In this document: positions 2,998 to 6,570 of the stretch, in pieces
How the letters are laid out: every line of letters begins with the position of its first letter
Position numbering within the stretch: position 1 is the first letter of the stretch
IMG/VR virus record: IMGVR_UViG_3300034789_000989
Span: 1 to 24,096 of that record
Length of the DNA stretch: 24,096 bases
Strand: one strand, 5' to 3'
Source of the DNA: a virus
Translations under genes and position numbers: made by a program
The notes under the pieces: generated by a model
The model's input: only the letters and a program-made list of their open reading frames with translations
Databases searched by the model: none
What the model was told of the DNA's origin: nothing

Positions 2998-4180
2998 TTT
3001 TGGATTTGGTAAAAAGGATACGGAAGAAAAGCTAAATCCGATTCAACCATACTATGGTAAAACTACTGAACCCAGTAAAGAATTTACATACAGTTACGAA
3101 AGAGCATACGAAGATTTAGAAATTGTAAATCGTGGTGTGAATATTCTTGTAGACGACTGTGCAGAAATTGATGTAGTTGTTCACGAACAGCTCCCAACAC
3201 AAAGTGTAGTAAAAGGAATAAAAGCTTCACGTATAAAAAAGCTTTTAAATCAGGAGCCGAATCCTTTTCAAGATATTTCTTCCTTTCGAAGGAATCTATT
3301 TACAGATTATATACTTGATGGTAATATTTTTGTTTACTATGATGGAGTACATCTCTATCATTTACCAGCAAGTAAGATGACTATTCATGCATCTTCTAAA
3401 ACTTACATAGATCATTATAGTTTTGATGGAGATGAGCAAAAGTTTTCTGTTAATGAAATCATTCACGTAAAAGAAAACTCTTTTTATTCAATTTATCGCG
3501 GGGTCTCTCGTTTGAAGCCAGCATTACGAACGATGCTTCTTATGAGAAATATGCGAGATTTTCAAGATAACTTCTTTAAGAATGGTGCAGTCCCGGGACT
3601 AGTAATTAAATCACCAAATACTTTGTCAGAAAAAAACAAAGAAAGAATGATTCAATCTTGGACAGCTAGATATAAGCCGGATGCAGGTGGCAAGCGTCCT
3701 TTAGTGCTTGATGGCGGAATAGAAGTGGATGAACTTTCGAAGATTAACTTTAAAGAGTTAGATTTTCAACAAGCGATTACAGAAAATGAAAAAATTATTT
3801 TGAAAGCATTGGGAGTTCCCCCTATTTTGATGGACTCTGGAAACAATGCAAACATTCGACCAAATATGCGAATGTATTATTTAGAAACTATCTTGCCGAT
3901 TGTTAAAAAGATGAACAAAGCCTACTCACGATTTTTTGGCTTTGATATAGGCGAAGATATTACAGATATTCCTGCCCTACAGCCAGAGCTGAGGGATCAA
4001 GCAACTTTCTACACTTCTCTTGTGAATGCAGGAATCATAACACCTAATGAAGCTAGAGTTGCTATGAATTTTGACGAGCTACCTGATGCGGACGAAATTC
4101 GTATACCTCAAAATATAGCTGGAAGCGCAGTAGACCCATCACAAGGTGGCCGACCTACTGAGAATGGAGATGACGAATAA
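2984..4180 (+). CDS. Portal protein
   Basis: A 398-residue HK97/lambdoid-type portal protein (Phage_portal family), forming the dodecameric channel at the capsid vertex where terminase docks and the tail attaches. Supporting segments are YERAYEDLEIVNRGVNILVD near the N-terminus, LLNQEPNPFQDISSFRRNLF, DYILDGNIFVYY, the IYRGVSRLKPA loop, FFKNGAVPGLVI and ALGVPPILMD. The C-terminus is polar and acidic (PTENGDDE). I chose ATG 2984, giving MAWYNFGFGKK, rather than the upstream in-frame TTG at 2963, because AGAGA at 2972-2976 is suitably spaced and the protein then begins like typical portals. It overlaps the HNH gene by 14 bp and the next gene by one base (TAATG). Confidence 0.93.
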   Translation: MAWYNFGFGKKDTEEKLNPIQPYYGKTTEPSKEFTYSYERAYEDLEIVNRGVNILVDDCAEIDVVVHEQLPTQSVVKGIKASRIKKLLNQEPNPFQDISSFRRNLFTDYILDGNIFVYYDGVHLYHLPASKMTIHASSKTYIDHYSFDGDEQKFSVNEIIHVKENSFYSIYRGVSRLKPALRTMLLMRNMRDFQDNFFKNGAVPGLVIKSPNTLSEKNKERMIQSWTARYKPDAGGKRPLVLDGGIEVDELSKINFKELDFQQAITENEKIILKALGVPPILMDSGNNANIRPNMRMYYLETILPIVKKMNKAYSRFFGFDIGEDITDIPALQPELRDQATFYTSLVNAGIITPNEARVAMNFDELPDADEIRIPQNIAGSAVDPSQGGRPTENGDDE

Positions 4181-4476
4181 TGGCTTCACGAAATAGATTA
4201 AGACAAGCTGTTAGTAAAAAGCTAGCAGAACAATTCAAAGAGTGGGGGCTGCCCAAAGATATTGATTATAAAAGCTACTGTAGTATCGTAGACAAGCCCG
4301 TAACTCCAAAAGAAGTTCAAAAGTCTTTTTATAACTGGAGAACTGCTGTACATTCTGTGCACATTATAGATAAGACAGTGTTTGCTCCTAAGCCTGCAGC
4401 AGCGCCTAAGAAAGAGGCTCCGGCCCCTAAGAAAGAACCTGCTAAGAAAGTAGAGAGTAAGAAAGATGATAAATAA
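4180..4476 (+). CDS. Small basic protein with Pro/Ala/Lys-rich tail, between portal and protease
   Basis: A 98-residue protein. Residues 1-68 look folded and helical (NRLRQAVSKKLAEQFKEWGL, then YKSYCSIVDKPVTPKEVQK). Residues about 69-98 are a low-complexity Pro/Ala/Lys tail with repeats of the type APKKE, probably disordered and positively charged. It is translationally coupled on both sides: 1 bp overlap with the portal stop and 11 bp overlap with the protease-capsid start. I do not recognise a family. Position suggests a head assembly factor or a small DNA- or scaffold-contacting virion protein; that is inference only. Confidence 0.75.
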   Translation: MASRNRLRQAVSKKLAEQFKEWGLPKDIDYKSYCSIVDKPVTPKEVQKSFYNWRTAVHSVHIIDKTVFAPKPAAAPKKEAPAPKKEPAKKVESKKDDK

Positions 4477-6523
4477 GATTTTTAATCTTACGTCTACCTT
4501 TAAAGCCCTTCACGAAGATGATGACGGGAGCGTTCATATCTGCGGTATGGCAAGTACTCATGATGAGGATCGTGCAAATGATGTTATTATGGCAGAAGCT
4601 TGGACAAAAGGTGGACTCGGCAATTTTGAAAAGAACCCTATTATTCTTTTTAACCATGATTACAATAAACCTATTGGTAGAGCTACAGGTCTTAAAGTTA
4701 CCGATAGTGGGCTTGAACTAAAGGCAAAAATTTCTAAATCTGCGCCAGATTCTGTGGCGCAATTAGTAAAAGAAGGCATTCTTGGAGCTTTTTCTGTTGG
4801 TTTCCGAGTCAAGGATGCTGATTATATGTCGGAAACTGACGGATTAAAGATTAAGGATGCTGAGTTGTTTGAAGTATCAGTTGTATCGGTACCTTGCAAT
4901 CAAGCAGCAACTTTTTCTCTGGCAAAATCTTTTGACTCTATAGAGGAGTACAATGATTTTAAGAAAACTTTCACCAATCGTGTAGATCTAGCCGGTCAGT
5001 CTCTGGCTAAGGATGAAAATTCATCGGTAGCTAGTGAAACACCGGACGAAGCGGACATTTCCGTGAAACAGGAGATCAAAATGTCGGAAGAAGTAAAAAC
5101 TCCCGAAGTCGACTTGGAAGCTTTTGCGAAGAAGGTGGCAGAAGAAACTGCTGCTAAGATTGCAATGAAGCAAGCCGAGCAAAAAGCTGCCGAAGATGCG
5201 GCAGCACAAGAAGCTGTTGAGAAAGCTCAGGCAGAAGCCGAGCAAAAAGCTCAGCAGGAAGAAGAAGTCCAAGCAGCTATTAAGGTTGGTGTCGAGTCCG
5301 GCGCTGATCGTCTGATGGCTGACGTCGAAGCTAAAATGGCCGAGAAGGACGCAGATATGGCCCAGGTTATCGAGCAGTACAAGAAGGACCTGGAAGAGAA
5401 GAGTGAAGAGCTCGAGAAGATGCGTGAGTCTAAGCGTGTATTCGCTGATCGTTCATCTGGCGATCTTCAGAAGCACTCTAAGGACTTGATGTATGCCCAC
5501 ATGCTGGGTGTGTTCACTCAAAAAGGCTGGGACACTCAGTATGGCCGTGAAACTCTTGAGAAAGCAGGTTTGGCTTATCCTTCTGCAAACTCAGGTACTC
5601 CCGCACTGGCTACAAGTGTTCAAACTGCACTTGAGAAGGAAGTTCAATTCCAGTATCGTCTGGCTCAAGCTTTCCGCGAAATCAATATGCCTTCGCAGTC
5701 AATGGTTCTGCCTCTGCAAAGCGATACGTCAAAGGCTGTATTCCACTCCGGTGGTGAGTCTGAGCGTTTTGTAGGTGGCACTGCTAATTCTGGCGCTGGC
5801 ACTGGTGTAACTAATGATGGCGGTACTGCAGGTACTTTTGACGTATCTCAGATCGTTCTTACTGCACACCGTCTGATTTCAACTACGTTCCTCGACAATC
5901 ACATTGACGAAGAGATTCTTGTTAATCTTCTCCCAATGATGACCGAGAATGTTGCACGTGCTCACGCAAAAGCAGTAGATGATATGGTTCTGAACGGTGC
6001 AGCTGGCCCCGGTATCAATGGTATTGCTGACATGGCTACCAATGTTACTTTGTCAACCGCTAACCAAGTTTCACTTTCAAACAATGATGCTCTTACCGCA
6101 GCCGCTCTTCTTGAAGCGCGTTCTGCAATGGGTAAGTATGGCCTTTCGCCGACTGACGTTACCTTCATCGTCTCTCAGAAGCGTTACTACGATCTGATTG
6201 CTGATGCTGGTTTCGCAGACATCACTGACGTCGGTTCCGACGTAGCTACCAAGCTGGTTGGTTCTATTGGTTCTGTTTATGGTACTCCCGTACTCATTTC
6301 TGATAACTTTGCCACTACAGAAACTACGTCTACTGACATTGCTTACGCAGTCAATACTTCCAACTTTGTTATTCCACGTCTCCGTGGTGTCAATGTTGAG
6401 CAAGACTACGAAGTACGCGAGCAGCGTCGTCTCGTTGTCGCTAGCCAATCTCTCGGTTTCGACCGTCTGTTTGGTGCTACTAGCAACAACGTTGCAGCTT
6501 TCGCTATCAAGCCTGTCACCTAA
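4466..6523 (+). CDS. Prohead protease-scaffold-major capsid protein fusion
   Basis: A 685-residue fusion. Residues 1 to about 165 are an HK97-type prohead protease (peptidase S78): LFNHDYNKPIGRA carries the probable catalytic His64, GAFSVGF carries Ser110, and ELFEVSVVSVPCNQAA is the family's typical end. Residues about 206-325 are an Ala/Glu/Lys-rich coiled coil equivalent to the HK97 delta or scaffold domain. Residues about 335-685 are an HK97-fold major capsid protein, from the TSVQTALEKEVQFQYR region to a C-terminus with QDYEVREQRRLVV. The protease would remove the delta region, probably near residues 320-335 (inferred). An internal in-frame ATG at 5081 with its own ribosome site should make capsid protein alone. 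Codon choice changes sharply at this junction. A terminator follows the stop. Confidence 0.93.
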   Translation: MINKIFNLTSTFKALHEDDDGSVHICGMASTHDEDRANDVIMAEAWTKGGLGNFEKNPIILFNHDYNKPIGRATGLKVTDSGLELKAKISKSAPDSVAQLVKEGILGAFSVGFRVKDADYMSETDGLKIKDAELFEVSVVSVPCNQAATFSLAKSFDSIEEYNDFKKTFTNRVDLAGQSLAKDENSSVASETPDEADISVKQEIKMSEEVKTPEVDLEAFAKKVAEETAAKIAMKQAEQKAAEDAAAQEAVEKAQAEAEQKAQQEEEVQAAIKVGVESGADRLMADVEAKMAEKDADMAQVIEQYKKDLEEKSEELEKMRESKRVFADRSSGDLQKHSKDLMYAHMLGVFTQKGWDTQYGRETLEKAGLAYPSANSGTPALATSVQTALEKEVQFQYRLAQAFREINMPSQSMVLPLQSDTSKAVFHSGGESERFVGGTANSGAGTGVTNDGGTAGTFDVSQIVLTAHRLISTTFLDNHIDEEILVNLLPMMTENVARAHAKAVDDMVLNGAAGPGINGIADMATNVTLSTANQVSLSNNDALTAAALLEARSAMGKYGLSPTDVTFIVSQKRYYDLIADAGFADITDVGSDVATKLVGSIGSVYGTPVLISDNFATTETTSTDIAYAVNTSNFVIPRLRGVNVEQDYEVREQRRLVVASQSLGFDRLFGATSNNVAAFAIKPVT
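5070..5074 (+). promoter_or_regulatory. Internal Shine-Dalgarno for a nested capsid start
   Basis: AGGAG at 5070-5074 stands six bases before the in-frame ATG at 5081-5083 (Met206 of the fusion). It is the strongest ribosome site in the head genes, far better than the weak sequence ahead of the full-length start at 4466. Confidence 0.8.
5081..6523 (+). CDS. Nested major capsid protein (delta domain plus capsid), internal start
   Basis: Predicted second product of the fused gene: 480 residues starting at Met206 of the long frame. It contains the delta/scaffold coiled coil and the complete HK97-fold capsid domain, without the protease. Evidence is the AGGAG site with ideal spacing, the position exactly at the domain boundary, and codon usage: all 18 arginine codons from here to the stop are CGT or CGC, whereas the protease half and most neighbouring genes also use AGA and CGA. 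This would give hundreds of capsid copies per few protease copies, logically like the nested C/Nu3 genes of lambda. The start is predicted, not observed. Confidence 0.75.
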   Translation: MSEEVKTPEVDLEAFAKKVAEETAAKIAMKQAEQKAAEDAAAQEAVEKAQAEAEQKAQQEEEVQAAIKVGVESGADRLMADVEAKMAEKDADMAQVIEQYKKDLEEKSEELEKMRESKRVFADRSSGDLQKHSKDLMYAHMLGVFTQKGWDTQYGRETLEKAGLAYPSANSGTPALATSVQTALEKEVQFQYRLAQAFREINMPSQSMVLPLQSDTSKAVFHSGGESERFVGGTANSGAGTGVTNDGGTAGTFDVSQIVLTAHRLISTTFLDNHIDEEILVNLLPMMTENVARAHAKAVDDMVLNGAAGPGINGIADMATNVTLSTANQVSLSNNDALTAAALLEARSAMGKYGLSPTDVTFIVSQKRYYDLIADAGFADITDVGSDVATKLVGSIGSVYGTPVLISDNFATTETTSTDIAYAVNTSNFVIPRLRGVNVEQDYEVREQRRLVVASQSLGFDRLFGATSNNVAAFAIKPVT

Positions 6524-6540: not shown

Positions 6541-6570
6541 AACTGGGGAGGCTCGCCTCCCCAAGTTTTT
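6541..6570 (+). terminator. Intrinsic terminator after the capsid gene
   Basis: A GC-rich hairpin, GGGGAGG (6545-6551) with CCTCCCC (6556-6562) around a CTCG loop, extends through a bulged A to AACT/AGTT and is followed by TTTTT at 6566-6570. It begins 17 bp after the capsid stop. The following gene starts at 6583, so read-through must supply the downstream genes. Confidence 0.85.

Follow-up and report, generated by a model that had tools for sequence, protein, structure and literature searches.

The window, i.e., the whole stretch of DNA analyzed here (24,096 nucleotides), is a 24-kb viral contig whose head module encodes homologous terminase, portal, protease, delta-capsid, head completion, and tail proteins in the order found in phage T5. 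Positions 4466-6523 are open throughout and comprise 685 codons with an ATG start and no internal stop, as a sequence-only reading of this DNA had proposed. The features of this gene and its surroundings are as follows.

4466..6523, + strand: fused gene for protease, linker, delta (scaffold) domain, and capsid, 685 aa (from ORF reading, Pfam, and a profile of relatives)
4466..4468, + strand: full-length start with a weak Shine-Dalgarno (SD) sequence, overlapping the end of ORF 4180-4476
4535..4930, + strand: S78 prohead protease domain, residues 24-155 (Pfam), with His64 at 4655 and Ser110 at 4793, both invariant
4982..5044, + strand: near-invariant H1 module, with the hairpin proper at 4993-5044
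4993-4996/5041-5044, 5003-5009/5028-5034, and 5012-5016/5021-5025, + strand: lower stem, middle stem, and covarying tip of H1, respectively (pairing analysis)
5051..5064, + strand: H2 hairpin (GCGGA-CATT-loop region-TCCGT), strongly covarying, 5 bases 5' of the SD
5070..5074, + strand: nested SD, AGGAG (sequence and conservation)
5081..5083, + strand: nested ATG (Met206) for the capsid, without exception in 321 distinct genes
5081..5560, + strand: delta (scaffold) domain, its end placed by alignment with the T5 pb8 cleavage position
5561..6520, + strand: HK97-fold capsid domain, T5 pb8-like (alignment and profile matches)
6544..6563, + strand: terminator-like hairpin with a T-run, 3' of the gene (one scan hit, not above shuffled expectation)

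The N-terminal part of the encoded protein matched Peptidase_S78 (PF04586) in Pfam (E = 3e-16, 60.5 bits against a cut-off of 21), and the window protein scored 70.6 bits against TIGR01543 (cut-off 59). With these curated cut-offs passed and H64 and S110 invariant, it was assigned to the HK97-family prohead proteases (S78). The C-terminal part matched T5-type capsid structures (E about 1e-50; profile of relatives searched against the PDB), and residues 206 to about 365 are Ala/Glu-rich, helical, and located at the same position as the T5 scaffold (delta) domain. Pfam, the profile search, and the T5 alignment thus recovered the three domains that the sequence-only reading had placed in one frame. 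The two forms that it had put at roughly 75 and 52 kDa have computed masses of 73.8 kDa for the whole frame and 51.5 kDa when started at Met206. The full fusion was poorly modeled by AlphaFold (mean pLDDT of 54).

A promoter scan of the region gave no sigma-70-like hits beyond chance level, and the linker had none. In the T5 record, a terminator is annotated at the position equivalent to that of the hairpin at 6544..6563. The 98-residue ORF at 4180-4476, between the portal and protease genes, has a Lys/Ala/Pro-rich tail, shares an 11-base overlap with the fusion start, and had no Pfam or PHROG match.

The nearest phage isolates were T5-like, with about 30-34% identity, and none had a single site matching 80% of the fusion. 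The protease and capsid genes of T5 and of the other T5-like records compared (the annotation of AhSzw-1 being incomplete) are separate neighbors, with the capsid start 3-17 bases past the protease stop, an arrangement of the T5-like module that the window lacks. The protease part is homologous to T5 pb11 (protease, T5.150; 43% identity) and the capsid part to T5 pb8 (capsid with a delta domain, T5.149; 22% identity). The gene order is the same, whereas the two genes of T5 correspond to one fused gene with a nested start in the window. Met206 aligned to the start region of the separate T5-like capsid proteins, and residues 1-205 matched protease alone. Because the two capsids are only 22% identical, the equivalence of Met206 and the pb8 start rests on position and domain order. 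Given the T5-like gene layout and the alignment of Met206, the window gene is a merger of two older genes that has preserved the former capsid start.

Relatives were collected from five IMG/VR scans and one scan of GTDB genomes, with the best 80 matches retained per scan, a procedure that favors full-length matches. Hundreds were obtained, and one scan that came close to exhausting its patterns (84 stretches) gave the same picture as the best-80 scans. Among the matches listed, the protease and capsid were fused in frame at 412 of the 414 related loci carrying both parts. One of the two unfused loci has an apparent frameshift (L220), and the other, L444, is distantly related (25%) and has the two genes separate. 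The frame breaks of L220 and of a further locus, L170, fall outside the junction and are apparently errors. Judged from these sequences, the fused gene is typical of a large group of uncultured phages that are distant relatives of T5.

The AGGAG at 5070-5074 is followed by six bases (ATCAAA) and then by the in-frame ATG at 5081 (codon 206), an arrangement at the domain junction to which the sequence-only reading had drawn attention. It had also described the full-length start as weak, in agreement with predicted SD energies of -3.3 kcal/mol at that start (context GAGAGTAAGAAAG-ATG) and -7.4 kcal/mol at ATG 5081. An SD energy at least as good as -6 kcal/mol was predicted for 22/22 nested starts, compared with 7% of 1178 other in-frame ATGs. 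The mean predicted pairing to the 16S tail was -8.0 kcal/mol for the nested start and -5.0 kcal/mol for the full-length start. The nested SD was the stronger one in 58 of 68 cluster representatives, and the full-length SD was at least as strong in 10 of the 68.

Among the matches listed, all 321 aligned distinct fused genes had ATG at the Met206 column, and all 321 had GGAG or AAGGA 6-9 bases 5' of it. In a later scan, the nested SD and ATG were likewise found in 50/50 script-parsable genes of the outer clade (see below). The codon holding the first SD bases encodes Lys, Gln, Glu, Thr, Met, Leu, or Arg, and its third base is always G where present. The next SD codon was GAG in 286 cases and GAA in 23, against the general preference of these genes for GAA as the Glu codon. 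When each 75%-identity cluster was represented by a single sequence, the fixation of these SD wobble bases despite amino-acid change had P values of about 3e-7 and 7e-9. The wobble bases, the ATG, and their spacing were kept across >40% amino-acid divergence. With an SD and a start codon both conserved inside the frame where two domains meet, the gene has the sequence features of a nested in-frame dual start. The linker is rich in insertions and deletions, yet stays in frame and without stops, which suggests that the fusion is also under selection. Both products therefore seem to be selected, the short form as indicated by the retained SD and ATG, and the long form as indicated by the uninterrupted linker.

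Strong SDs inside reading frames are sometimes silent. Given that the ATG and SD were kept in all distinct genes and that this SD is stronger than that of the full-length start, we conclude that the nested start is very probably used to make capsid. Alternatively, all capsid could be produced from the full-length fusion by proteolysis, with the internal SD and ATG a useless relic of the separate gene. This would fit with the frame being open throughout, with a linker that could be cut by the protease itself, and with the annotation of related fusions as single proteins. A relic would decay, however, and here the SD wobble bases, ATG, and spacing were kept in 321/321 distinct genes, so we regard production by proteolysis alone as very unlikely. 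It would also supply one protease per subunit, far more than the about 60 proteases per 415 subunits of HK97 proheads (PMC12749128). In T5, the 775 capsid subunits are cleaved by the separate protease pb11 (PMC5292684).

Codons 172-192 stood out in a synonymous-conservation scan, as genes of <90% identity hardly differ there at any of the three codon positions, and RNA structure appears to be the cause of this conservation. The H1 hairpin has a lower stem, a near-invariant seven-pair middle stem, and a tip whose two sides vary together (GATGA/TCATC, GAAGT/ACTTC, GAAGC/GCTTC, and more). The folding energy of the window linker was -35.2 kcal/mol, compared with -24.5 (sd 3.2) for shuffles. Across the whole linker structure, two-sided changes were found in 13 pairs (65 distinct sequences). 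The two-sided changed cells numbered 89 compared with 30 (sd 4.6) in shuffles (0/500 shuffles as high), and sliding the pairing partners abolished the covariation signal. L170, which was outside the model building, scored 95 bits and had compensatory changes also in the middle and lower H1 stems. Taken over hundreds of phage genes, the covariation shows that the predicted linker structure is selected.

In a fixed register, G-U pairs outnumbered A-C mismatches 25 to 8 (one invariant G-U pair excluded), which favors a coding-strand RNA rather than a DNA hairpin as the selected form; a looser pairing script gave 13 to 13. A candidate helix between GATCT and the bases from the SD on (alignment columns 4-8/104-108) pairs in 98% of cells and never covaries, and was set aside as unproven.

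The second hairpin, H2, ends 5 bases before the SD in the window and a few bases before it in the relatives, and usually has four to seven pairs. It was found by script in 130 of 138 clusters. Of the eight misses, four contain H2 on visual inspection, its stem including a G-U pair or its loop being longer, and the other four, of the L350 type, form just three pairs. The mean stem score was 13.7, compared with 5.3 (sd 0.6) in shuffles. The inner four bases of the 5' arm occurred in 36 different versions, and arm complementarity was 94% with the real partners against 47% (sd 3) with swapped partners. Even the most distant fused genes carry H2, whether or not they have H1. Among T5-like isolates with separate genes, a short H2-like hairpin lies beside the SD in T5 and phiR2-01, and most others are without one.

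In a tree of the capsid part, H1 was detected in 61 of 66 inner-clade genes and was missing from five scattered ones. It was absent from the outer clade (14 genes), where the H1 label of L305 is a pattern error. This distribution fits an H1 that was ancestral in the inner clade and lost at least five times, with H2 and the start retained. Because both the losses and the outer-clade absence leave H2, the SD, and the ATG in place, these three are taken as the core, and H1 as accessory. A conserved linker motif peculiar to the outer clade (L318, L326, L361, and relatives), GCAGACGCTGT...GAGCAGCCAAG, lies about 70 to 40 bases 5' of the nested ATG and may be another kind of upstream element in this clade without H1.

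The clean in-frame presence or absence of about 63 near-invariant bases of H1 between relatives is also what would be seen if H1 were a mobile or selfish insert with no tie to capsid expression. An exact 28-base core pattern was searched for in IMG/VR, and 249/249 locus copies (duplicates included) were in or beside the protease-capsid gene, with no other location. An RNA model search of five whole records, including a 101-kb contig, found a single copy in each, with no second copy. As the tree also fits ancestral presence in the inner clade followed by losses, a mobile H1 is disfavored and seems improbable.

Against Rfam 15, the best hits of the linker RNA scored 19 and 15 bits, with E above 0.3 and far below the gathering scores, and a blastn search gave no copy of the element in cultured phages. 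We found no account of this RNA element, or of a nested capsid start in protease-capsid fusions, in the literature searched, which had most subscription journals outside its reach. H1-H2 is thus an apparently undescribed conserved RNA element, in a type of fusion that is already known elsewhere.

We propose that the separate protease and capsid genes of a T5-like head operon were merged, with the capsid start and its SD retained inside. Ribosomes entering at 4466, with its weak SD and overlap with the previous gene, would make the 74-kDa protease-delta-capsid protein, and those entering at ATG 5081, with its strong SD, would make many 51.5-kDa delta-capsid subunits. One mRNA could plausibly yield few protease-carrying fusions and many plain capsid subunits in this way. 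The fusion would co-assemble via its delta/capsid part, with the protease entering the prohead in limited copies, and we consider covalent delivery of the protease into the prohead somewhat more likely than not. The cleavages that take off the delta domain would then also free the protease, with a cleavage near residue 365 corresponding to the T5 cleavage position. The central proposal of the sequence-only reading, a fusion with a nested capsid start, stands on the homology, the 321/321 conservation, and the SD strengths; it mentioned neither the two hairpins nor the fusions known elsewhere.

The two linker hairpins may tune entry at the nested start. H2 would be a fixed border that helps to keep the SD single-stranded, and H1 an accessory module, such as a processing signal or a protein- or ribosome-responsive element. 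The predicted openness of the SD was 0.57 with the native upstream sequence and 0.48 with shuffled codons (p=1e-8), a modest gain restricted to genes with H1; genes without H1 showed no gain (0.47 vs 0.46). We lean slightly towards an action of the hairpins on nested initiation. The broader proposal, to which we give an even chance, is that H1-H2 is a new kind of in-coding phage regulatory element, which would set the ratio of protease-carrying to plain capsid via nested-start entry and perhaps respond to a protein, ribosome traffic, or RNA cleavage.

The hairpins could also, in addition to this reading, form an mRNA processing or protection site that gives a separate capsid mRNA, for example by an RNase III cut in H1 that leaves H2 as a protective 5' hairpin. 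RNA cleavage, rather than initiation tuning on the long mRNA, would then set the ratio. The length, imperfect pairing, and internal loops of H1, the location of H2 directly 5' of the SD, and the terminator-like hairpin 3' of the gene are all in line with processing. The outer clade, however, has no H1, and inner-clade genes lost it at least five times; we consider this possibility less likely than not. Structured RNA within a coding region is typical of recoding sites, and stops occur just inside H1 in another frame, so that a frameshift releasing free protease might be envisaged. But visual inspection revealed no conserved slippery site, the universal part, H2, adjoins the SD and not a shift site, and the indels, being in frame, show read-through of the main frame. 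Recoding is therefore extremely unlikely.

Phage lambda C/Nu3 is a protease gene with a nested in-frame scaffold gene. As predicted for the window, its shorter product comes from an in-frame internal start in the protease gene; the nested product of the window would be a capsid subunit with a delta domain, whereas that of lambda is a separate scaffold, and the protease families differ. HK97 gp4 (protease) and gp5 (delta-capsid) share the domain logic and protease family of the window, but are separate genes (H115 is annotated as protease alone) where the window has one fused gene. The HK97 protease is incorporated without covalent fusion. How tailed phages dose just enough protease into the prohead is poorly understood, and a fusion with a nested capsid start, if true, makes the protease/capsid ratio a property of one mRNA.

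Protease-capsid fusions are described, in the accessible parts of the reports, for Arthrobacter phages of clusters AM, AU, and AN (PMC5513430) and Microbacterium phages of cluster EE (PMC9671004); these parts make no mention of a nested start or RNA element. Such actinobacteriophage fusions, and those of the NCBIfam entry NF045541, resemble the window in joining an S78-type protease and a capsid in one gene, but the capsid lineage is different, and the window protein did not match NF045541 (45-46 bits against a cut-off of 525). In 6/6 Curtobacterium and Microbacterium fusions examined (L083 2820-2842, L447-L451), GAGGA precedes an in-frame ATG at the junction, at a distance that varies between genes. 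A protease-capsid fusion of the E. coli phage vB_EcoS-783R2 (L510 2171-4105) has AAGGA ten bases before an in-frame ATG193 at the junction. The SD-like junction sites in these two unrelated fusion families are weaker cases than that of the window. Together they suggest that a nested capsid start may be a recurring companion of protease-capsid fusions, and hint that this solution evolved more than once. The Microcystis phage Mvi-JY20 (L084 2351-3844) was considered as a further fusion and rejected, as the long C-terminal part of its 498-residue protease gene matches no capsid family.

A second patch of very strong synonymous conservation was observed at window positions 4781-4820 (about codons 106-118, around Ser110), with identical codons at 0.95-0.98 compared with about 0.6 expected, possibly reflecting another nucleotide-level constraint.
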